This document shows positions 38,635 through 52,375 of a stretch of DNA of 64,000 bases, one piece after another. The position numbers and the translations under genes were made by a program. The notes beneath the pieces were generated by a model. That model had not been told where the DNA came from, ran no database searches, and worked only from the letters and a program-made list of their open reading frames with translations. The DNA is from Spirochaetota bacterium (lineage in GTDB: Bacteria > Spirochaetota > Brachyspiria > Brachyspirales > JACRPF01), in contig JACRPF010000002.1 in assembly GCA_016214035.1 (NCBI GenBank), positions 1-64,000 of the forward strand. The letters are read 5' to 3'. The number at the start of each line of letters is the position of its first letter. The stretch's first letter is position 1.

Positions 38635-40020
38635 TTACTTAGGCATTTTGCCGAGCATTGCGCATTCATCGGTGGATAGTTTTTTCCCGTTGATGGTGAT
38701 ATTAGTGAGGGTGACATTTTTATACCGATCGACGATAATGTCGCCGCCTGAGACGGTGATGTCGTTCGCCGAGAGCCCGGCCTTATCCGGTTTTGTAAGA
38801 TCGTTTGCGTAAAAGCCCAGAGACGCGTTGCTTACGTTAACGGTGTCCAATGTACATTGCTGTGCGGTCGCCACACGGATTCGGCGGTTCACTGACAGGA
38901 CATTTGATACAGTAACCCCGGCGCAGCGGAACAAATGCATGCCGTCATTGCCGCAGTCGACAGCGGTGATGTCGTTTGCGGTAATTCCATAGCGCCAGAA
39001 CCGTTCATCGCCGATGAGCGGTTCATTGAAATTCCATACGAAAAATCCCGTATTAACGCGGCGTGCATATAATCCGTTGATATGTATACCGCGTGAAGCT
39101 AGATATGTCCAGCTGAAACGGGAGCCGTCCTTACGGCCGCTGTCGCATATGATTCCGGATGATTTTCCATCAACACGTACGTTTGATATGGAAACATTTG
39201 ACGCGCCGGAAATCCGGATGCCGTTTGCTCGTCCGCCGATAGCGGTTATGTTTTCGGCATCTGAACCGCTGTTGTTCCATTCGCCGAGTGACGGCAGCAC
39301 ATAAGGTCCGCCGGTATAATGATTGGTTATTCCGTTCTCATCGTAATATGTTACGAATGCAAGTGTATCATCACCGTTCGATATACCGGTATGGTTTTTT
39401 ACATGAACCCTGCGGCAGGCGTTGAAATGAAGGCCGTCGGCGAGATTATTTTCAACATGAAAATAGTCAACGGTGACGTCAGAACAGCCCATCAATACAG
39501 CGCCGGTCTGCGGGCATTGTTCTGCACGGCAGTTGATCATGCGTACGTTTGCAATGGATTTCGCATCACCCGGATAGCCGAAGAAGTTAAAGCCGTCTCC
39601 TTTACTTCTGCTGGACGCACGAGTTTTCCAGCGTACTGTCACGTTTGAAATTACAATATTGCGGCACGCACCTTCAAAATGAATTCCGTGACCGCGGTCG
39701 CCTTTGCCATTTTCGGGGCTGAGATTGTCCATCAGCAGGACCGTTCCGGCATCAAAAATGATATTGATGTTTGTCGCGTCCTTGAAATAGATGCCGTCGC
39801 ATGCGCTGTTCTGTCTTGCGCAGCGGTATGTGCCTTTCGGAAAGTAGAGCGTGCCTCCTGTGGCTGCAATGGATGATGCCGCTTTGGTTATTGACGGCTG
39901 GTCATCGGTAATGCCGTCGCCGGCTGCGCCCTGTTCGCGAAGATTAACAACGAATGGTTCTATGGAAAATAGTGACGCCGCAAGCGTTGTGATGCAGATA
40001 CAAAAGGTTTTAAATGTCAT
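38635..40020 (-). CDS. exported right-handed beta-helix protein (pectate lyase / GH28-like)
   Basis: 461 residues. Start at 40020 because GGAGG lies six bases upstream; the ATG at 40026 touches that site. Signal peptide MTFKTFCICITTLAASLFS. The opening VNLREQGAAGDGITDDQPSITKAASSIAATGGTLYFPKGTY is the classic Pectate_lyase_3 / polygalacturonase-type beginning. Many beta-helix rungs follow (NIVISNVTVRWKTRASS, NVRMINCRAEQCPQTGAVLMGC, DVTVDYFHVENNLADGLHF, GNDGMHLFRCAGVTVSN). GDD in HTGISNGDDTLAF resembles the catalytic Asp pair of GH28, but the full GH28 set is not evident. Substrate unknown; probably part of one polysaccharide-degrading pathway with its neighbours. Confidence 0.85.
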   Translation of the reverse strand: MTFKTFCICITTLAASLFSIEPFVVNLREQGAAGDGITDDQPSITKAASSIAATGGTLYFPKGTYRCARQNSACDGIYFKDATNINIIFDAGTVLLMDNLSPENGKGDRGHGIHFEGACRNIVISNVTVRWKTRASSRSKGDGFNFFGYPGDAKSIANVRMINCRAEQCPQTGAVLMGCSDVTVDYFHVENNLADGLHFNACRRVHVKNHTGISNGDDTLAFVTYYDENGITNHYTGGPYVLPSLGEWNNSGSDAENITAIGGRANGIRISGASNVSISNVRVDGKSSGIICDSGRKDGSRFSWTYLASRGIHINGLYARRVNTGFFVWNFNEPLIGDERFWRYGITANDITAVDCGNDGMHLFRCAGVTVSNVLSVNRRIRVATAQQCTLDTVNVSNASLGFYANDLTKPDKAGLSANDITVSGGDIIVDRYKNVTLTNITINGKKLSTDECAMLGKMPK

Positions 40021-41164
40021 GATCATCCTCCGTGGAATATCGCTGAAAAGCTAAATGATATTTTTTATGAAGCGTATCGCCGTTCTGCCAGATACGCGGC
40101 ACTTCAATCCTGGTGCCGTTGACCGTTGCGCCGTTTATTTTTTCTATAAGCAGCTTGGCAGCCATCGACGCAAGCATATCGGTTTTTTTCAGCATACCGC
40201 TGATTGATTTTCTGGTGAGTAGTTTCATGTAGTCACCGCCCTCCGACAGCCCGACGATGGAAACCTGATCCGGTATTTTTATACCGCGTTCCGTGAGCGC
40301 GAGATACGTGCCGGCCGAGGCATAATCATTGATGCAGAAAAAACATTCCGGAAGTGTGTTTGCGTCAAGAAAACGGTTTACCTGGTTATATGCTATCATA
40401 TGAGGCGAGTTTCGAAACTCAAATGCCTGGCGTTGTTCTTCCTGGGTTCGGGATTCCGTCGTACTGCCGACCGTGGTGATTATACTGTGCTCTGAATATC
40501 CGGCTTTTAAAACCGATGCGGCAATATAGGAACCGAGATGGGATATTTCAGTTCCAAGCACAACAAAAGCAGCTTTGTTTATTCCTGTATTTTTGATAGA
40601 AATAAACATTTCGTCGAATGCGTTTTCATCATTCGAATAAACATAATCAAACTGTTTGCCGAAAATCGGATAACCGATAAACACCGATGGAATACCTTTT
40701 CTTCTTAAAGCAGAAGCGGCGTCAAAGCTCCGCTGCCACGACTGTATCAATATTCCGCCAACTGCGGCAGGATCGAGTTCTTCTATGTATCGCGTATGAA
40801 GCGCGGAATCAAACCTTGCTTCTTTCAATATTAAAGAGTATCCGCGTTCACTGAGCGCATTTTCAACAGCGGCAATTGATTGTAACGCGTAATAGCCCTG
40901 TAAGGTATCTATAAGAAATGTTATCGTATGAGGTGCACTCGCTGATAATTTTTGAAGGCTGACAAAACTTCCTTTGCCATGCACGGAATATATTAATCCT
41001 GAATGCTGTAATTCCTGGGTTACACGACGTATTGTTATCAGGCTTACTTTATAAATTGCAGCAAGTGATTTTTCAGAGGGCAGTTTTTCATCTGCTTTAT
41101 ACTTCCCCGCGGCTATGTCCGCGGATATTTTTTTAATTATTGTGTTGTATAAATTATGTTTCAT
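40010..41164 (-). CDS. GntR-type DNA-binding / LacI-type sensor transcriptional regulator (AraR-like)
   Basis: 384 residues. An N-terminal GntR winged helix (1-70: DIAAGKYKADEKLPSEKSLAAIYKVSLITIRRVTQELQHSGLIYSVHGKGSFV) is joined to a LacI/periplasmic-binding-protein sensor (about 78-370: ITFLIDTLQGYY, GGILIQSWQR, NDYASAGTYLALTERGIKIPDQVSIVGLSEG). This architecture is that of AraR-like repressors that respond to sugars. As the first gene of the glycosidase operon it is probably autoregulated and senses a breakdown product. Its 3' end overlaps the beta-helix gene by 11 bases. The mRNA leader is about 22 bases without a Shine-Dalgarno site. Base composition is more AT-rich than the flanking genes. 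Confidence 0.92.
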   Translation of the reverse strand: MKHNLYNTIIKKISADIAAGKYKADEKLPSEKSLAAIYKVSLITIRRVTQELQHSGLIYSVHGKGSFVSLQKLSASAPHTITFLIDTLQGYYALQSIAAVENALSERGYSLILKEARFDSALHTRYIEELDPAAVGGILIQSWQRSFDAASALRRKGIPSVFIGYPIFGKQFDYVYSNDENAFDEMFISIKNTGINKAAFVVLGTEISHLGSYIAASVLKAGYSEHSIITTVGSTTESRTQEEQRQAFEFRNSPHMIAYNQVNRFLDANTLPECFFCINDYASAGTYLALTERGIKIPDQVSIVGLSEGGDYMKLLTRKSISGMLKKTDMLASMAAKLLIEKINGATVNGTRIEVPRIWQNGDTLHKKYHLAFQRYSTEDDHDI

Positions 41165-41192: not shown

Positions 41193-41221
41193 ATTATAAT
41201 CGAGTATTTTTATTTTGTCAA
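41193..41221 (-). promoter_or_regulatory. consensus promoter of the polysaccharide operon
   Basis: On the minus strand: TTGACA (41221-41216), a 17-base spacer and TATAAT (41198-41193), identical to the sigma70 consensus in both boxes. It should be very active unless repressed. Confidence 0.88.
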
Positions 41222-41627: not shown

Positions 41628-41655
41628 TTGAAAAATGTTAAAACTATTTTATATT
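41628..41655 (+). promoter_or_regulatory. probable promoter of the giant surface-protein gene
   Basis: TTGAAA (41628-41633), a 16-base spacer, TATATT (41650-41655); start point about 41662. Boxes of this quality are easy to find by chance in such AT-rich DNA. Confidence 0.45.
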
Positions 41656-41681
41656 TAATAGGGAGAATGGACGATAATTAA

Positions 41682-41712
41682 GCGGTTTATAGTGAGTTCA
41701 AATCACTGCCGC
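41682..41712 (+). promoter_or_regulatory. hairpin in the leader of the giant gene
   Basis: Inner stem AGTGA (41691-41695) with TCACT (41703-41707) and a 7-base loop; outer stem GCGG (41682-41685) with CCGC (41709-41712) across an asymmetric internal loop. It ends 8 bases before the AGGAG site of the 41729 ATG, so it could affect ribosome access. Confidence 0.4.
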
Positions 41713-41728
41713 AATTTAGAAGGAGCCG

Positions 41729-44700
41729 ATGCTGACATTGATGTTCGACACGATAATACGGGCGTTGCCTTCATCGTCTAGGAGAGACTGCAGTCATAAT
41801 CATAATCGGGCACAAATCAATGAAAACGTTTTCATTGCAACTGTTTGTAAAAAAATTATTCTTGTAATATCACTGATGTTGTCAGGGTTGATTGCAGTTC
41901 ATGCTCAAACCATAACGTTGACCGTTGCACCGACAACAAATTTTTCAAAAGCAACTAATATTTCAAACGATTATCAGAACGTACGGATGATGCATTTTGC
42001 TGTTATTCATCCGGGCGGAAGTGAGGCGGTTACTATTACCGCTTTCGCATTCAGCGCATCCGGCAGGGGAGACGAATCACTTGATGTTTCTGCAGTGAAA
42101 TTATACCGTGACAATAATAACAACGGCGTTTATGACGGCGGTGATATCCAGATTGGCAGCGCGCAGTCATTTTCAATTGATGACGGCGATGTTTATTTTC
42201 TTGGAGCAAGTGAGACGGTATCAGCAGGTTCCACGAATTATTACCTGTTGGTATATGATTTTGCGGGGACCGGTCTTGATGGATCCTCATATATGGCGAG
42301 GATAAACACTTTGACAGCATCCGGTTCTTTGAGCGGAACAGTGATTACTGTACACGGTCTCCCGGCAACAGGTACCGGTGCGAGCATCAATGCCGATGGA
42401 ATTGGGCCCTCGTTTTACCAAGGACTTCCGTTTGCCTCGGCAAATCCTGCTTTTGTTCCAACGAATCTAACATTGAATATCAATACCGATGAACCCGTTT
42501 TCTCGGGCGGCCTCATTGCAGTGACAAATTTTTCAAGTGGCACCGGGACAAATCTGGTGGTCGGCGCAACGGTTACGATAGCGACGTGTAGTATCTCTGC
42601 GGGCCGATATGATGTGTCTGTATCGAATGCAACACCAGAAGTTCGGGATAATTGCTCAGTGTATAACAGTACACCAGGCGAGACATTTCAAAATCACGGT
42701 ATAGTGACAATGAGCTATCTCGTTTCAGCTGCAAATATCAATGACGGGACCGTATACTTCAAAATAGCATCGAACCGGTGGGCGAGCAATCTGGTTCTGA
42801 TGTATGAGACAAATATCGGAAATTTGAATAGTGGCGGTGTATGGTCGAATTTTATCACACCGGCATGGGAAGTTTTTCCGGGCAACATGGTAGGATATTT
42901 TGAGGATGACAACAATACTTCGAAATTCATGTCATTCGGTACTCCCGGAAGTTGTGATAGGTACTATCGTGCAGTTCCGAATCATACAGGAACACAATTG
43001 TTCACAGGCGAGACTGGACTTGCGCCATGCGTATATGCTGAGGGGTATGCTGTCGCTGATTATTATTCTCCGGTATATGATACGATAACCGGCGGTTCAA
43101 ATTATTACAGAATTCTCTGGTCGGAAGTTTCAAATAACGGCCAGGTTCAAGTGTCGTTGCGATGTGCAAATAACACCAACATGACTTCATCCAGCGGATG
43201 GACTAATGTTACGAACGGGATGTACCTCACCAATGTGACGGCACTCAGTAATCGCTTTCTGCAATACCGGATAACGTTATATGCCTCTACAAACGGTGAG
43301 GAATCGCCTGAAGTTTCATACCTGCGTATCCTGTATAACGTTACAAACCGTCCGGTTGTCAGTGTGACACAATCCAATTATGCAAATAGCGCAATAACAA
43401 ATTATCAATTCGTTTATTCAAATGCTGTATCGCAGCAATATTTCTCATTTACCAATACTCTTCGGTCCGGATATAATGGCGATCTGCTTATTTATTCTTC
43501 AGGTTTTGATATAAGCGGTAATCTTACTACGAATCAATATGTCGGCAGTATGGTCGTAGACGGTTTAACACCGGATGTCAGCAATATAACCTGCTGGCAG
43601 AATGCCAATTTTACCGGCATAATCACGAACGGCGTTTTGAATTATGATAATCTTGTTTCATACAGATTTTACAGTACCAATACGGCATCCGCGCAGCGAT
43701 TTTACTATGTATACACAAACAACGCTTCGGTAACTGTTGATGCAACGATGACGTCGACCACAAATAATTATCTGCTCAATCAGAATTTGACCGCTGGCAC
43801 CAATTATTTCATCGTACGTGCACGTAACGAGGTTGGTACCTGGGGGAGCCAGTTTGTTTTTACCAATGTATACACGGCGCCGCCGTTTTATGTTGATATC
43901 GGTGCCAATACACCGCCGGACCGATATGTTGTAAATAATGCCAATAACGTAGTGCTCATGCAGCTTCGCATGCAGGCGGGTGCCGTTGGGTATCATGTTT
44001 TTTATTTGAAATTCAAGGCGAACGGTACGTTGAATGATGTGTCGGATTTTTCGTTCAACAGTCTGAAATTATTCCTTGATGACGGCAACGGTGTATTTGA
44101 CGGAAGCGAACCGCTTTTATGCGGTGACCGCGCATTCACCGCTGACGACGGGTACGTTACGTTTGATAATTTTACGAACACTATTTCGGCAAATGCTGAG
44201 ACGAATATTTTCATTGTCGGCAGTCTTTCCGGCACCGCAGCTAGCAATAAGACTTTTTATCTCAGTTTTGAAGGTGTCAACGCCATGTCGAATATTGCGG
44301 TGGATAATGCAGCTACCAATGTGTTCACCGGAATACCCGTGTATGCGAATACCAACATTATAACGCTGCTCGGTACCATTTACGCAAATTATGGTCCGCA
44401 AAATCCATCACAAAGTATTATCAACCCCGATGATCAAAATGTACCGATGCTGCAGATGGCGTTGGGCGCTGGACCCGAAGAGGATGTTGATATTACATCC
44501 ATTACGATCAGCGCAAACGGAAGCGGTGATGACATGAATCATATTGCTGTAAACGGGGTAAGGTTAGTCAATGATGTGAACACCAATGGCATTTATGATG
44601 CGGGAGACGTCCCGGTGAGCGGCGGGCAGACCTATTCTGCTGATAATGGCAGCATAAGTTTTACCGGGTTGAATCTGCTGACTTCAGCCGGAACTACCAA

Positions 44701-47700
44701 TTATCTGCTGGTGGTGTATGACTTCAAAGGAACGGCTCCGAGCCAGGCAGATTTTCAAATGCAGGTGAATTCGGTCAGCGGAACCGGAATAAATTCTTCC
44801 GGCAGCGTGTCCGCATCAGGCACACCGCTTATAGGTTCCAAAAAAGTGGTGTTACTCGATCTGACCGGACCGCAATATTTTACCGGAACTCCGTTTGTTA
44901 CACCGGCGTTTGTTACAAACACGAATGTCATCATCAGCATAATTCCCGATGAGAATACCTATACCGGCGGGACGAATTATACCGACGTTCTTTTTACGAA
45001 AGGGACAGGAACCAACGTGAATCGTGTCGACAACAATCTTGTTATGACATTATTAAGTATTTTTGCGGGGAATACGAATACAATTGGATTGGCTAATTCA
45101 GGAAATAATAACTATACATATCTAAACAATGGGACTGCTGCGAAGTTTCAGTCACATGGTGTTGTTACAAAATATATCGGAATGACCGGAAGAACAGCGA
45201 ACAGAACTATGTATATATCAGTGTCCACCAACAGGACCGATCTCGGCGCTAATTTTTGGCAGGGATACGGTGTCCGTGCGATTTCTGCACCGGCTGTCAA
45301 TACATCGTACAGTCTATCAAATTTGAGTATTGCGGTGAAATCGAACGATGGTGTATATATCAATCCCAGAAATACGCGTGCACGGATAAACACAACTACG
45401 TATGGAAGCGGATTCCGGTCATATATAGGGAATGCATCAACTGCTGCGGTTGATTATACCGTTAATACTCCCGGTGTTGCAGCTATGGTGTATGTGGGAG
45501 CCGTCGGATACGCCACCGCAATATTCTATTCAACAAACATGCCGTTTGCCACAGGATTTTCAAATGCGTTACGCATGACATGGTCGAATGACGTTACCGG
45601 AGGCGGGACCATAACCATGCGTGTTCGTGGAGCCGATACGCTTGTTAATCTAGCATCGGCAACCTGGTATACCGTAAACAAAAACTCAACACCGAATGCG
45701 CTGACGAATGCAGCTATACGATATGTGCAGTATGAGGCGGCATTTACAGCTGCAGCCCCAGAAGGCGGAACAGTCTCGCCGAAATTGGTCTCTTTCTCAA
45801 TTGATTACGGCTGGAAGAATTATCCAATAGTATACACCGTTCAACCCGGCGGAAAGACCAATTATGCCACGTATCAAACGGGCAGCGGAACGGGGACGTT
45901 TACGTTCACCAATAATATAGCCGATACCAACGGTGCTGTTGATGTCTACGCTACCGCACGTGATTATTACGGTAACTGGGCATCAAATGTATATGTGGGG
46001 ACGTTCATATACGATCGTTCACAGCCGAATATTACCAATCTGAAGTGTTATACATCACCGTCATATTCATTTGAAATATCAAATAATGCTCTGTTTTATG
46101 ATGAAATAGTCAGTTTTAATGTTAGTAACAAGGTTGATTCTCCTTCGGGGGTATACTATTATTATACACTCGACGGAAATCCGGATACGAACAGCATATC
46201 AAACGCACTGGCAACATATTCGACAAACACTTCAATAAACGATATCGGATTGCCGGAAGGTACCAATTATTTCCATGTACGCGCAAGAACGTTCTACGGG
46301 ATCTGGGGAAATGAGGCCGTTTTCACTAATATTTTCAAACGCCCAGCACTGAGCATTGATGCCGGCAGCGCCAATCCTCCTGCAACCAATGTGATCATCG
46401 GCACCGGAGATGTAGCCGTGCTGCAGATGCGTCTGCGTGCGGGTCCGGCATCGGGTATTATTGTCTCAAATCTATCTTTTACCGCGGCGGGGAGCGCGCA
46501 TGATGTGAACGATATTTCTTTAATCCGGATATATGATGATAACGGGAACGGTATACTTGACGCCGGCGATACATTACTTGCATCCAATGTATATAACGCA
46601 GATAATGGCCTGGTGACATTCACCAATTTAAATTATACGTTTGCGGCAAATCAAACACGGTATCTCACGCTTATATATGATACCAAGACGACAGCAACTA
46701 TCGGCAGTACCTTTTTTGCAGGTATAACCAATCTTTCAAGTATCGTTGCTTGGCCGCCTGATTACAGCGATATCGTCTCAAATATCCAATACTTTCCGCT
46801 CTGGGGCAATACAAACACCTTTTTCCGTACGGCTGCAGTATCACTCTCCGCGGGTGCGAATAACCCGTCATCAACCAATGTTGCAAGCAATACAACCGAT
46901 CTTCTCATGCTGCAATTCACCGCAACAATGAATAACGGGGAATCGGTCAAGCTGTCGAATATCACCATCAGGGCAACGGGAACCGGCGATGATACATTCG
47001 ATGTTTCTGCAGCGAGCGTGCGTCTGTATTTTGACAATAATGCCAACGGCGCAATTGACGGCGGCGACACGTTGCTTGGGTCAGGTTCATATAATTCGAA
47101 CGACGGAGTTTTCAGCGTTCAGAACATAAACCGCACGTTGACACCGAATTCCGTGACGAATTTTATCGTTGTACAGAGCTTCAGCGGTAATGCTACGAAC
47201 GGCAAGTGGTTCAGAGTCTCGCTTGACACAAATACTGCTTTCACCGTATATGGTATGACAACAGGCAATCCAATTACCGTTTCCGGAGCCCCGGTGAGCG
47301 GCGGTACGGTGAATATCGGTGTTGATACCACGCCGCCGTATTTTTCCCCGTACGGTGGTTTTGTGAGTCTGGACCCGTCTCCGCTGACCAACAGTCTGTA
47401 TATCTATGTCCAGGTTGATGAAAAAGTGAAAAGCACGAACGGGCCGGGGGCAACGGTGACGAATTATCCGATCATCCGTGTCATACAGAGTAATGCATCA
47501 CAATGCACTACGAACACAGCCGTTTGGATATCCGGTCTCACCAACGGTCCATTTACGAACAGCTATGCTGTACAGAATTTCGACGGAAAGGCATATGTCT
47601 ATGCGGAAGGATACGACCTCGCGTCACCGTCGAACTGGACGAATATGCTTGTTGGTACATTTATGGTGGATGTAACATACCCAGCGTCATTTATAACTAA

Positions 47701-48334
47701 TTATATAACCTATGATACGGTAACTAATACCAATATCAATGTCATGATGTATGCGTTGGAGACGAATGTTACCGTATCAATAAATGTGACAACAGCTTCA
47801 AACGGCGGCAGTGTTGTTTCGTATATTTCAAACCGCTCTATTGCGGGCAGCAATTATACGTTCACCAATGTGGCACTCAGTAATCTTGAGGGATATACCA
47901 ACTGGCTCACGCTTACCGTTCGCGATGCTGCAAGCAATAGTTCAAATTCAGCATCAATCGGGGTCATATATGCAACAACACCGGTGATAATTGTCAGTAA
48001 AACAAGGGCAATCTATACTCCGCTCGATTTTTATACAACTCCGACGAATGAACTGCTCCCTGGGGGCATTATTTTGTATACAATTGCCTATACCAATGCG
48101 GGCGTATCGCTCGCAACGAATATCGTCGTTGAGGAATATCTGCCGGCGAATCTATACTATCTGACCGGCAGTGCTACGGGTGGCGACAGTTACAGCTATG
48201 CTACGAACGGTGTGTATGCAGGATATACACCATCAGGAACGGTTGATACCAACATTAACCGCATCAAATTCTCGAAGACCGTGATTCCCGCGGGCGCATC
48301 AGGCTCCGTCAACTACCGAGCGGTGTTGAGGTAA
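41729..48334 (+). CDS. giant exported repeat protein with calcium-loop modules and DUF11 C-terminus
   Basis: 2201 residues in this frame. The signal peptide core (KKIILVISLMLSGLIAVHA, cleavage before Gln 60) is preceded by 40 residues that do not look like a signal peptide, so the real start may be the ATG at 41820 in another frame (see findings). Five related modules at about 60-215, 720-880, 884-1050, 1541-1695 and 1702-1865 each carry a DxNxNGxxDxGD loop (for example DNNNNGVYDGGD), like calcium-binding loops. A 650-residue superunit occurs twice (about 60-719 and 884-1541), with sandwich and Ig-like modules between. Residues about 2085-2201 are a DUF11 domain (LLPGGIILYTIAYTNAG). Asn and Thr are very abundant. 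Probably a secreted adhesin or outer-layer protein. Confidence 0.85.
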   Translation: MLTLMFDTIIRALPSSSRRDCSHNHNRAQINENVFIATVCKKIILVISLMLSGLIAVHAQTITLTVAPTTNFSKATNISNDYQNVRMMHFAVIHPGGSEAVTITAFAFSASGRGDESLDVSAVKLYRDNNNNGVYDGGDIQIGSAQSFSIDDGDVYFLGASETVSAGSTNYYLLVYDFAGTGLDGSSYMARINTLTASGSLSGTVITVHGLPATGTGASINADGIGPSFYQGLPFASANPAFVPTNLTLNINTDEPVFSGGLIAVTNFSSGTGTNLVVGATVTIATCSISAGRYDVSVSNATPEVRDNCSVYNSTPGETFQNHGIVTMSYLVSAANINDGTVYFKIASNRWASNLVLMYETNIGNLNSGGVWSNFITPAWEVFPGNMVGYFEDDNNTSKFMSFGTPGSCDRYYRAVPNHTGTQLFTGETGLAPCVYAEGYAVADYYSPVYDTITGGSNYYRILWSEVSNNGQVQVSLRCANNTNMTSSSGWTNVTNGMYLTNVTALSNRFLQYRITLYASTNGEESPEVSYLRILYNVTNRPVVSVTQSNYANSAITNYQFVYSNAVSQQYFSFTNTLRSGYNGDLLIYSSGFDISGNLTTNQYVGSMVVDGLTPDVSNITCWQNANFTGIITNGVLNYDNLVSYRFYSTNTASAQRFYYVYTNNASVTVDATMTSTTNNYLLNQNLTAGTNYFIVRARNEVGTWGSQFVFTNVYTAPPFYVDIGANTPPDRYVVNNANNVVLMQLRMQAGAVGYHVFYLKFKANGTLNDVSDFSFNSLKLFLDDGNGVFDGSEPLLCGDRAFTADDGYVTFDNFTNTISANAETNIFIVGSLSGTAASNKTFYLSFEGVNAMSNIAVDNAATNVFTGIPVYANTNIITLLGTIYANYGPQNPSQSIINPDDQNVPMLQMALGAGPEEDVDITSITISANGSGDDMNHIAVNGVRLVNDVNTNGIYDAGDVPVSGGQTYSADNGSISFTGLNLLTSAGTTNYLLVVYDFKGTAPSQADFQMQVNSVSGTGINSSGSVSASGTPLIGSKKVVLLDLTGPQYFTGTPFVTPAFVTNTNVIISIIPDENTYTGGTNYTDVLFTKGTGTNVNRVDNNLVMTLLSIFAGNTNTIGLANSGNNNYTYLNNGTAAKFQSHGVVTKYIGMTGRTANRTMYISVSTNRTDLGANFWQGYGVRAISAPAVNTSYSLSNLSIAVKSNDGVYINPRNTRARINTTTYGSGFRSYIGNASTAAVDYTVNTPGVAAMVYVGAVGYATAIFYSTNMPFATGFSNALRMTWSNDVTGGGTITMRVRGADTLVNLASATWYTVNKNSTPNALTNAAIRYVQYEAAFTAAAPEGGTVSPKLVSFSIDYGWKNYPIVYTVQPGGKTNYATYQTGSGTGTFTFTNNIADTNGAVDVYATARDYYGNWASNVYVGTFIYDRSQPNITNLKCYTSPSYSFEISNNALFYDEIVSFNVSNKVDSPSGVYYYYTLDGNPDTNSISNALATYSTNTSINDIGLPEGTNYFHVRARTFYGIWGNEAVFTNIFKRPALSIDAGSANPPATNVIIGTGDVAVLQMRLRAGPASGIIVSNLSFTAAGSAHDVNDISLIRIYDDNGNGILDAGDTLLASNVYNADNGLVTFTNLNYTFAANQTRYLTLIYDTKTTATIGSTFFAGITNLSSIVAWPPDYSDIVSNIQYFPLWGNTNTFFRTAAVSLSAGANNPSSTNVASNTTDLLMLQFTATMNNGESVKLSNITIRATGTGDDTFDVSAASVRLYFDNNANGAIDGGDTLLGSGSYNSNDGVFSVQNINRTLTPNSVTNFIVVQSFSGNATNGKWFRVSLDTNTAFTVYGMTTGNPITVSGAPVSGGTVNIGVDTTPPYFSPYGGFVSLDPSPLTNSLYIYVQVDEKVKSTNGPGATVTNYPIIRVIQSNASQCTTNTAVWISGLTNGPFTNSYAVQNFDGKAYVYAEGYDLASPSNWTNMLVGTFMVDVTYPASFITNYITYDTVTNTNINVMMYALETNVTVSINVTTASNGGSVVSYISNRSIAGSNYTFTNVALSNLEGYTNWLTLTVRDAASNSSNSASIGVIYATTPVIIVSKTRAIYTPLDFYTTPTNELLPGGIILYTIAYTNAGVSLATNIVVEEYLPANLYYLTGSATGGDSYSYATNGVYAGYTPSGTVDTNINRIKFSKTVIPAGASGSVNYRAVLR
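41849..41855 (+). other. A7 slippery run at the signal-peptide junction
   Basis: Seven A residues read A AAA AAA from the ATG at 41820, the classical -1 slippery heptamer form. The 41820 frame stops 18 bases after the run; moving to the -1 frame at this run joins a normal basic signal-peptide n-region to the hydrophobic core of the giant protein. Confidence 0.5.
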
Positions 48335-48502: not shown

Positions 48503-49549
48503 ATGGTTTCCAAACATTGGAAAAAGGTGTTCTCGATGCTCGTCATCGCGATCGCCATGGTGCTCGGCACCGTAACCGTCGCATTCGCAAAGGGCACGAC
48601 GGCAGGATCTGACATTCTCTCGACAAACACGGTGGTAACGTTCGAAAACACCGCGGCCTTCTCAATGACGACGAACGCGACCAATGCGCTCAGCGCATTG
48701 TCGAACAAAGTGCTCTCGGTATTCGGGGCCAGCAACTATACGGTCGAATATTCGAACATGTCGCCGTCTGCCGGGACGTCGAATTACATTTCGTTTATTT
48801 TCACCAACTGGGCTAACTCGAACGCTCAGTATCGCAGTCTGTTCTGGACGAACTGGGCAGCCCTCGGCGCATCAAGCGCATGGGAATGCATCCTGAGTAA
48901 CTTCACGGGTAACAATGAGATTGCGGCTGCGGGCACCACATCGGCAAATATCGCCCCTGACGCTGAACTGGAACTTCGCCTGCATTACGGGATTCCCGCC
49001 GATGCGCCGGACGGAGCGCAGTTGACCTTCATGCTGACCAATATACTCGGTGAGAACCCCTATGGCGGTCAGGCTCCGCGCACATTTAAGTATCTCGGCA
49101 CCAACGGGATCTTCTACGGCGGTTCGAACTGGTTCACGAACACCGTGGTGATAACCGTCGGCGGTCCGAAGATCATCGTCTCGAAAGCGGTTACGGTTTC
49201 TGCTCCTGCCGCATACGTGACCACGGGTGGTGCTGCGACCGATGTTGTTCCTGGTTCAGTGATTACGTATACGCTGACCTACACCAACGCCGGCTCGGGC
49301 ACTGCACAGAACGTTGTGCTGCGTGACTACCTGCCGTCCGCGGTTGCGTATTTTACCAACACTGCTGCCGGTTCTGCAACGCCGACAATCGTGTTGCGCA
49401 ACCTTGCTGACTCTGCCAACGTAACTGAAGGTACGGTCACTGCCGGGAACGTTAACGACACGGTCGGACACATCCGGTTTACCATACCCGGCACTATCGC
49501 AGCTAACGCAGCTGTCGGTACTGTTACGTACAAAGTCGTAGTGAAATAA
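48503..49549 (+). CDS. exported DUF11-type surface protein, probably highly expressed
   Basis: 348 residues with a strong signal peptide (MVSKHWKKVFSMLVIAIAMVLG...AFA). Residues about 35-75 (SDILSTNTVVTFENT) are the first strand-pair motif found at the start of DUF11-repeat proteins. The middle (about 75-215) is a beta domain rich in Trp, Asn and Ser. Residues about 225-348 are a DUF11 unit (VVPGSVITYTLTYTNAGSGTAQNVVLRDYLP ... VGTVTYKVVVK). AAC dominates over AAT for Asn, unlike the giant gene just upstream, which suggests selection for high expression. It may be the major subunit of a surface layer, sheath or fibre; that is inference. Confidence 0.85.
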   Translation: MVSKHWKKVFSMLVIAIAMVLGTVTVAFAKGTTAGSDILSTNTVVTFENTAAFSMTTNATNALSALSNKVLSVFGASNYTVEYSNMSPSAGTSNYISFIFTNWANSNAQYRSLFWTNWAALGASSAWECILSNFTGNNEIAAAGTTSANIAPDAELELRLHYGIPADAPDGAQLTFMLTNILGENPYGGQAPRTFKYLGTNGIFYGGSNWFTNTVVITVGGPKIIVSKAVTVSAPAAYVTTGGAATDVVPGSVITYTLTYTNAGSGTAQNVVLRDYLPSAVAYFTNTAAGSATPTIVLRNLADSANVTEGTVTAGNVNDTVGHIRFTIPGTIAANAAVGTVTYKVVVK

Positions 49550-49802: not shown

Positions 49803-51014
49803 ATGAGAGTGTTAAAGGCGCTCATACTTGCGGTGATCCTATTCGCACCGCTTGCCGCGCAGATATCGTATGATATCCTTCATACGAATGCGCTGGTAAC
49901 GTATGACAACGCCCTTGGTGTGCCTTTTACAAATACGAATTGCAGCAACATGTCGGTACCGTTGAATGCGTGGACGAATAATTCACCCACGAATACTAAT
50001 AACATATCTACCAACATTCTTACGGTAAACGAACTGCCGCTGGCAAAGTTTGTATTATCCACCAATGGAGCCGCGTTGTTTGCGGGAAGCCCGTTCTTCC
50101 TGAATATACGCGCTGTAGACGCTTTCGGTAATCACGTCACTGTGACCAATGTTTCGAACCTCACTTTCTCCTCCTTAAATAATAGCCTCAACCTGACGAC
50201 ATCGAACCTTGCTGTGACCAACATGGCGTTCGTGTCACCGTCAGCAGTTGTTCCTGATCTCTTCGGGAGCAATTTCAGCAACGCCTACGCGGTACCCGGC
50301 CTGATATACATCAGGGTGGACCAGAATACCAACACGGATATGCTGGGCCTACTCAATGTAAGGCCGGGTATCGTGGGCGGGCTGATAACGTTCGACCGCA
50401 GCACCTATGTGGGTCACGGTGAGCGTGCGCTGATCACGGTGAACGATGCCGACCGCAACATCACCTATGATGCGGTCGACTCGGTGGTCATACATGTGAC
50501 GTCAACGGCTGATGCTTCAGGCAAGGATCTCGTACTGTATGAGACAGGCGTGAATACCGGTGTGTTCACCCATGTACTCAGGTTCGAGACGGCGCTGTCA
50601 GCAGCACCGGGAAAGATCTATGCCACCAACAACAGTATCGTGTATGCGGCGTACGCAGACACAAGCCCCGTCGCAACAACAACGGTGAGCGCGCTGTTCA
50701 GGGCTGTTTCCGATGTGACAAAAGTCGGAACCTGGCCCAATCCGTTCGACATGCGCGTTACGCCGACGATGTACATGCTCAATCTCCCGCCGGATACGAG
50801 CTATGTAAAGATCTATACGATCGACGGAAAATTGGTCCGTACGCTGGTGCCGGGCGGCGGTATCGGCAATGTTGAGGTGCAGGGGGCGAGGTTCTTCGGA
50901 GCAACATGGGACGGCAAGGACGAACAGAGTAATCCGGTGCGGCCGGGACTGTATCTGATGGAGATGCGCACTCCGCAGGCGACACTTGTCAAGAAGTTCG
51001 GGGTGCTGCGATGA
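49803..51014 (+). CDS. exported protein with FlgD/T9SS-type C-terminal domain
   Basis: 403 residues, signal peptide MRVLKALILAVILFAPLAA. The mature start (ISYDILHTNALVTYDNA) matches the DUF11-protein beginning of the preceding gene. Residues about 85-300 are Ig-like beta modules (FFLNIRAVDAFGNHVTVTN; ALITVNDADRNITYDAVDSVVIHVTS). The last 85 residues (VGTWPNPFDMRV...YVKIYTIDGKLVRTL...ATWDGKDEQSNPVRPGLYLMEM) have the FlgD Ig-like / type IX secretion type-A sorting-domain pattern (PNPF, IYxxxGxLVRxL, WDGKD, GxYxxxM). The C-terminus may direct sorting or anchoring. It follows a 253-base structured leader. Confidence 0.85.
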   Translation: MRVLKALILAVILFAPLAAQISYDILHTNALVTYDNALGVPFTNTNCSNMSVPLNAWTNNSPTNTNNISTNILTVNELPLAKFVLSTNGAALFAGSPFFLNIRAVDAFGNHVTVTNVSNLTFSSLNNSLNLTTSNLAVTNMAFVSPSAVVPDLFGSNFSNAYAVPGLIYIRVDQNTNTDMLGLLNVRPGIVGGLITFDRSTYVGHGERALITVNDADRNITYDAVDSVVIHVTSTADASGKDLVLYETGVNTGVFTHVLRFETALSAAPGKIYATNNSIVYAAYADTSPVATTTVSALFRAVSDVTKVGTWPNPFDMRVTPTMYMLNLPPDTSYVKIYTIDGKLVRTLVPGGGIGNVEVQGARFFGATWDGKDEQSNPVRPGLYLMEMRTPQATLVKKFGVLR

Positions 51015-51118: not shown

Positions 51119-52375
51119 ATGAAGCGATCGCTGCATATGACAGCGATATTGACAGTAATTGCCGCCGTACTCGGTGCGCAGTCCGTACTGTATATTTCGC
51201 CATACCCCACGGGGCAGGCCTTGGCCGGCGCGTTCAGTGCATATGCCAAGGATTCCGAGGCGATATACTATAATCCGGCGGCAACGTATTACGGCTATAA
51301 GAACGATCTGTATGTAACGTATACGGCATGGCTGGCAGAGACCAGTCTCATGGCGCTGAGTTACCGCTACAAGTATGACTCACGGTTGGCATTTGGTTTT
51401 TCATTTACGGCTTTTTTAAGCGGCAATGTATCATACAACCCGTTCGGAACAGCGCAGCCGTTCCTGTATGACAGCGACGGCGCATGGGTATTGCCCACAA
51501 CATCAAGCATGTATTCGTATAATGAGTTTCTCACAACATTCAACGCAAGTTATCTTCTGGCAATAGATAAATTTTTCATTCCCATCGGTGCGAATCTGAA
51601 ACTGGGCCGATTATCATTCGACCTGAGTGCAGATTCACTCACGCAGGGATCGTTTTTCATCACCGCCGATGTCGGCGCCATACTGCCGGTGCACATAACG
51701 TTCGGCATTAAAGACGAGTGGCTGAAACGCTTCATTCCCGAGCGGGTGTCGCTGACCATAAAAGACCTCGGCGGGAGTTTTGACCCGGGCGGAGGTCTTG
51801 CCTCAGCCGCGGCGGATGCGGCGATACGGCTCGGACTCGGGTTCAATATCTGGGAAACAAAATTCCTCATGCTCGATCTTCCGTCATATTATCACACGAC
51901 CACGGAGATTGATCTTTCCACGGACGATATCTTCAGTATGGGAATTAACAATGAACTGACAATCAACCGCATGGTCAGCATCGATGCCATGCTGGGTTTC
52001 AAGGCCAACGCATCTCTTGTGTCATTTGCCGGAGGTTTTTTTACAAGCCTTGAGTTCTATAACATCGTTTACCGTGCGGGATATTCATTCGCCCTGATGG
52101 GTTCTCTCGGTATGACGCATCAATTTTCATTCAATGTTGATTTCGACTTTGACATCATCGGCAGTATATTCGGCAAGGATGCGAAGACCGTTGAGCAGGA
52201 GAAGGTGACCCAGACGGTGACCGAACTCAAACGGCTTATCCAGGAAAGCAATTATAAACAGGCTGCGTTCATTCTGAAACAGCTGCTTGAAAAATATCCT
52301 GAGAATGAAAAACTCAAGGAAATATACGATCGGCTCAAAGAGATCAGCCCGGATGTTGATTTGTTTTTCTACTAG
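51119..52375 (+). CDS. PorV/UPF0164-like outer membrane beta-barrel protein with C-terminal helical extension
   Basis: 418 residues, signal peptide ending VLGAQ. The opening YPTGQALAGAFSAYAKDSEAIYYNPAATYYG is the PorV/FadL-like hatch sequence also seen in UPF0164 proteins of treponemes. Amphipathic strands rich in aromatic residues fill about 45-350. The last 60 residues (VEQEKVTQTVTELKRLIQESNYKQAAFILKQLLEKYPENEKL) form a helical TPR-like extension that would lie in the periplasm. In Bacteroidetes, PorV shuttles substrates with C-terminal sorting domains. Here the preceding gene encodes such a domain, making a functional pair plausible but unproven. The upstream 104 bases hold AAGGAG, somewhat far (11 bases) from the ATG. 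Confidence 0.85.
   Translation: MKRSLHMTAILTVIAAVLGAQSVLYISPYPTGQALAGAFSAYAKDSEAIYYNPAATYYGYKNDLYVTYTAWLAETSLMALSYRYKYDSRLAFGFSFTAFLSGNVSYNPFGTAQPFLYDSDGAWVLPTTSSMYSYNEFLTTFNASYLLAIDKFFIPIGANLKLGRLSFDLSADSLTQGSFFITADVGAILPVHITFGIKDEWLKRFIPERVSLTIKDLGGSFDPGGGLASAAADAAIRLGLGFNIWETKFLMLDLPSYYHTTTEIDLSTDDIFSMGINNELTINRMVSIDAMLGFKANASLVSFAGGFFTSLEFYNIVYRAGYSFALMGSLGMTHQFSFNVDFDFDIIGSIFGKDAKTVEQEKVTQTVTELKRLIQESNYKQAAFILKQLLEKYPENEKLKEIYDRLKEISPDVDLFFY

Follow-up and report, generated by a model that had tools for sequence, protein, structure and literature searches.

Homopolymer runs that join two reading frames fall into several described classes: programmed -1 frameshift sites such as those of dnaX and the IS3/IS911-type cassettes, transcriptional slippage sites such as those of Thermus dnaX and IS elements (PMC1088944), the phase-variable runs of surface-protein genes in, for example, Bordetella and Neisseria, and singleton frame transitions, of which the authors who classified them expected the BLASTp-validated ones to reflect sequencing errors and not true indels (PMC3711429). 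In E. coli, A-rich heptamers are shift-prone, and heptamers lacking stimulators reach 2.1–10 times a background of 0.055% (PMC4066793). Homopolymers of eight or longer are often used in programmed transcriptional slippage (PMC3711429), and selection against runs is evident from nine upward in many genomes (PMC1088944).

We analysed a 64,000-nucleotide stretch of a Spirochaetota bacterium genome (the window), in which a giant secreted-protein gene has a run of seven A's in its signal-peptide coding region. The locus shares with singleton homopolymer transitions a break at a homopolymer in one genome only, an intact in-frame relative and conservation of the rest of the gene, but here an upstream in-frame ATG hides the break and a gene caller still gives one long ORF. 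Like the dnaX and IS3/IS911-type sites it has a correctly phased A_AAA_AAA-type heptamer with a zero-frame stop soon after, but no Shine–Dalgarno (SD) stimulator, downstream structure or conservation accompanies it. As in A-run transcriptional slippage, an A run joins two frames, although it comprises seven A's instead of nine and is unconserved; and as in phase-variable surface-protein genes, a homopolymer lies near the gene's 5' end, although the run is short and known here from one assembled sequence. On balance, we consider a homopolymer slip (mutation or consensus error), not recoding, the probable explanation of the gene's start.

Two reading frames meet at an A7 run

The giant ORF extends on the plus strand from ATG 41729 to a stop ending at 48334 (41729–48334; 2,201 aa) and has a DUF11-like domain close to its C terminus. 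Another frame (41820–41867, plus strand) opens at ATG 41820–41822 with MKTFSLQLFVKK and reads MKTFSLQLFVKKLFL before ending at TAA 41865–41867. The junction of both frames is the A7 run (41849–41855, plus strand), which in the 41820 frame is read as GTA AAA AAA, the zero-frame phase of an X_XXZ_ZZN slippery heptamer. Across the run, the giant frame reads CKK IILVISLMLSGLIAVHAQ and continues with IILVISLMLSGLIAVHAQTITL; it contains the hydrophobic core and cleavage region of a signal peptide, IILVISLMLSGLIAVHA (41855–41905, plus strand), and an A-X-A motif suggests that the mature protein would begin at Gln 41906. The positions of the ATG and the run and the joining of the two frames there, first proposed in a sequence-only reading of the window, were borne out.

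The geometry of ATG and run is by itself ordinary and is weak evidence, because 16% of A6+ runs in ORFs show the same arrangement (96 of 604 across an 864-kb sample of this genome, counting an ATG no more than 60 nt upstream of the run, in the -1 shift donor frame and open up to the run). Among the A6+ runs within the first 240 nt of sampled ORFs, 10 of 133 did so. What sets this case apart from chance is how well the MKTF frame matches the signal peptide of the gene's orthologue, which lies in frame.

An orthologue favours ATG 41820 as the start

The collections searched yielded one close orthologue, in a genome of the same family (G001:C101; 68% identity to the giant protein), and one distant homologue in another family (G040); no further genome of the species and no closer orthologue was found in the genome contig collection. 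The G001 protein starts with MKTFLQYVKNILLFAMFGSLAANAQ, carries MKTF-LQ-VK in a single frame with the mature protein, and has neither an A7 run nor a shift. The first 12 codons of the short frame in the window are homologous to this signal-peptide start. The apparent signal peptide of the G040 protein is also in frame. Neither the offset nor the site is thus conserved in these relatives, G001 being in frame without the run and G040 in frame, and as far as the two genomes go a conserved recoding site is excluded.

Read through the run, the MKTF peptide of the window scored 45 against the G001 peptide, compared with a maximum of 17 for the 121 other predicted signal peptides of the genome and 21–25 for the giant-frame alternative; when the mature start was included, the read-through peptide scored 90 and the giant-frame alternative 60. 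With MKTF left out and the lysines fixed, 1.6% of random draws equalled the read-through match. The DNA alignment from ATG to Gln between the window and G001 was better than 2,000 of 2,000 shuffles, and its score without the first 16 nt was reached by 0.3% of shuffles. The protein and DNA scores therefore favour ATG 41820 as the homologous start, with a frame-breaking length difference at the A-run. As in singleton frame transitions, there is an unbroken homologue (G001) that both the upstream and the downstream part match, the upstream part being short and a register with no break existing as well. At the DNA level the gapped and ungapped registers score similarly, with an outcome that varies with the gap costs chosen, and the best alignments with gaps arrive at the same total length via several indels.

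Apart from the A-run, the giant gene is intact, and its differences from G001 lie mostly at third codon positions, a sign of purifying selection on the ORF. The next gene, encoding a DUF11 protein (48503–49549, plus strand), is intact and 49% identical to the gene at the same position in G001; the secreted-protein gene that follows (49803–51014, plus strand) is 46% identical to its G001 counterpart, and its signal-peptide start is conserved and in frame. The gene downstream of the giant operon (51119–52375) gave a weak, below-cutoff match to UPF0164.

Our preferred explanation is that an ordinary signal peptide, naturally starting at ATG 41820, would export the giant protein, and that in the assembly the A-run would be offset by one base from the mature frame. 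The cause would be a single homopolymer slip, either a consensus error or a contraction that arose recently in the strain or population sampled, and the run would be no programmed recoding site. From these comparisons we infer a true start at 41820 and a slip in the run; the initial ~40 residues of the 41729 frame are probably not part of the natural protein. The sequence-only reading had joined the two frames into one signal peptide that a shift might gate, and the orthologue upholds the part that places the natural start probably at ATG 41820 and the break at the A-run; the gating was not supported. The alternative offered there, one missing A through error or mutation, gives the best fit.

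An operator-like palindrome overlaps ATG 41820

A feature absent from that reading is a perfect 20-nt palindrome, CAATGAAAACGTTTTCATTG (41818–41837), that overlaps ATG 41820, is shared with G001 and supports a rival explanation without any shift. It contains a LacI-type operator match, TGAAAACGTTTTCA (41821–41834), and as RNA would form a hairpin of about -5.8 kcal/mol. We take TGWAANCGNTTWCA to be the consensus of LacI/CcpA-type operators, which the palindrome matches fully. The 14-bp pattern TGWAARCGYTTWCA has 3 exact matches in this 5.2 Mb genome and 11 in G001 (reversed control, 0), and a looser 16-mer with no more than 2 mismatches has 11 and 19, respectively, versus 0 and 2 in the control. 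With a palindromic consensus matched above chance in the genome, the element is a predicted LacI-type operator. Its resemblance to known operators extends to the recurrence of sites in the relative, mostly before secreted-protein genes, but here the start-codon region is overlapped, whereas other sites lie roughly 40–280 nt upstream of the gene. The G001 sites are mostly intergenic, several of them upstream of secreted-protein genes. The palindromes ATGTAARCGYTTACAT (L038–L050, L079–L094) recur in G001 and are rarer in this genome, several again lying 5' of secreted-protein genes; their recurrence suggests a putative LacI-type regulon. A neighbouring gene (40010–41164) encodes a GntR-type DNA-binding domain and a LacI-type sensor domain, and a perfect TTGACA-17-TATAAT lies upstream of it on the minus strand (41193–41221).

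The palindrome matters for the main rival explanation, in which no frame break exists: translation would begin elsewhere in the giant frame, ATG 41820 and MKTF would be by-products of the LacI-type operator, and AAA AAA ATT would be plain Lys-Lys-Ile codons ahead of the hydrophobic core. The start could then be ATG 41729, which follows AAGGAG and would give the signal peptide an extended n-region, or ATT 41834 (41834–41836, plus strand, giant frame), a candidate non-canonical start. We regard this as rather unlikely, though a serious contender. In its favour, ATG 41820 lies inside a perfect palindrome whose pattern recurs as described above, and the distance from operator to mature Gln codon is exactly 88 nt in both the window and G001, so that in an ungapped register ATG 41820 stands opposite ATG-TAA and the G001 start ATG faces ATT 41834; moreover, in both genomes the giant frame stays open further upstream. 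In that register, however, identity across the central part of the signal peptide is no higher than chance (9 of 30 nt, 41850–41879), and the protein match of the MKTF frame to G001 is much better than that of the no-break alternative. Because the signal peptide aligns at chance level without gaps, we kept the ungapped register as the main rival and did not adopt it.

The SD-like AAGGAG (41720–41725, plus strand), which speaks for ATG 41729, lies 3 nt before it, an unusually short spacing found in 4 of 516 sampled ORFs, the 41729 ORF included (usual spacing, 5–9), and residues 1–40 of that frame do not clearly resemble the frame upstream in G001. ATT, the other candidate start, is a very rare start codon. 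The coding score of 41729–41817 was -3.8 per 90 nt, which is non-coding-like, but the signal-peptide core scored equally low, which makes this weak evidence. Because roughly one in two sampled genes has no clear SD, the lack of one before 41820 does not settle the matter.

Further upstream, a sigma-70-like promoter match (TTGAAA-16-TATATT, 10 of 12; 41628–41655, plus strand) was not above shuffles for the region. The leader at 41670–41900 folds better than shuffles (z -3.0, equalled by 0 of 200), and part of AAGGAG 41720 falls within a stem; in G001 the leader has no folding excess (z 1.16). An Rfam search of the giant gene's leader gave no match near gathering scores, and upstream of the operator the window and G001 aligned locally no better than shuffles (24% reach the score). 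In the G001 leader, about 190 nt ahead of the MKTF start, a strong SD precedes an open frame of 17 codons (L015, 9448–9387, minus strand).

Recoding and phase variation at the run

Programmed recoding, by a ribosomal -1 shift on A_AAA_AAA or by RNA polymerase slippage on the run, could also yield the exported protein from ATG 41820, and the sequence-only reading had proposed that it could gate expression. The heptamer has the phase required, the zero frame stops shortly afterwards, and such A-rich heptamers are the shift-prone kind in E. coli (PMC4066793). Yet the 85 nt after the run fold no better than shuffles (z -0.03), leaving no stimulatory structure; 41820–41848 contains no GGAG/AGGA/GAGG-like motif that could act as an SD-like stimulator; and 267 ORFs hold 49 copies of A_AAA_AAA in this phase, not fewer than in the other phases (64 and 47). 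With neither A7 nor frame offset in G001, the site is also unconserved. We therefore prefer a slip to recoding, given a break that is not conserved, the failure to find an SD or a stimulatory structure, and a heptamer whose in-phase form is frequent in other ORFs; recoding appears highly improbable, and nothing beyond the heptamer supports the proposed gate.

The same reading had allowed for a phase-variable gate through run length. Slipped-strand changes would then switch the frame of the signal peptide, export would occur in part of the population and the assembly would represent the off state. Such a switch would suit a large surface protein with a homopolymer in the part of its gene that encodes the signal peptide and with the rest of that gene intact and conserved. 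Seven is a short run, though, in a genome where runs of A6–A9 are numerous (A8, T8 and A9 are all present), and a run near a signal-peptide start is ordinary there, A6+ occurring in the first 60 nt of 10 of 121 predicted signal-peptide genes. The G001 orthologue has no such run, and beyond the heptamer itself we found no support for the gate, which we judge improbable. If run length did vary in the population, the run would be a compact means of switching the export of a giant surface protein. A combined arrangement, in which export is set by two elements within 40 bases, the start-codon-overlapping operator and the length or decoding of the A-run that decides the signal-peptide frame, strikes us as quite improbable.

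A probable slip in the run

The preferred reading, a slip in the run, finds a parallel elsewhere in the genome: a membrane-protein gene is broken at a T8 run (L030, 6739–7411, G000:C15), and one G001 protein, in frame across this point, matches the first frame with its N-terminal part and the second with its C-terminal part. Against a slip stand the ungapped register, which needs no break, the partial dictation of MKTF by the operator-like palindrome and the single close orthologue in the collections searched. Nor is an error in the A-run expected a priori, because mid-gene frame breaks are rare (few across the 864 kb of this genome surveyed) and A8, T8 and A9 runs are present; on these same grounds we rejected a general contraction of homopolymers by the assembly. 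If the break were a real null mutation, it could only have arisen very recently, because the giant ORF is otherwise intact and under purifying selection. A slip is therefore recent, an error, or tolerated.

With either a slip or a misjudged start, the consequence would mainly be one of annotation: the ~40 predicted N-terminal residues would probably not be real, and a broken signal peptide would be masked by the upstream in-frame ATG. Elsewhere in the genome, a coding-frame model marked possible mid-gene frame transitions at about position 15567 of L059 and about position 355 of L078, the latter near a C5 run.
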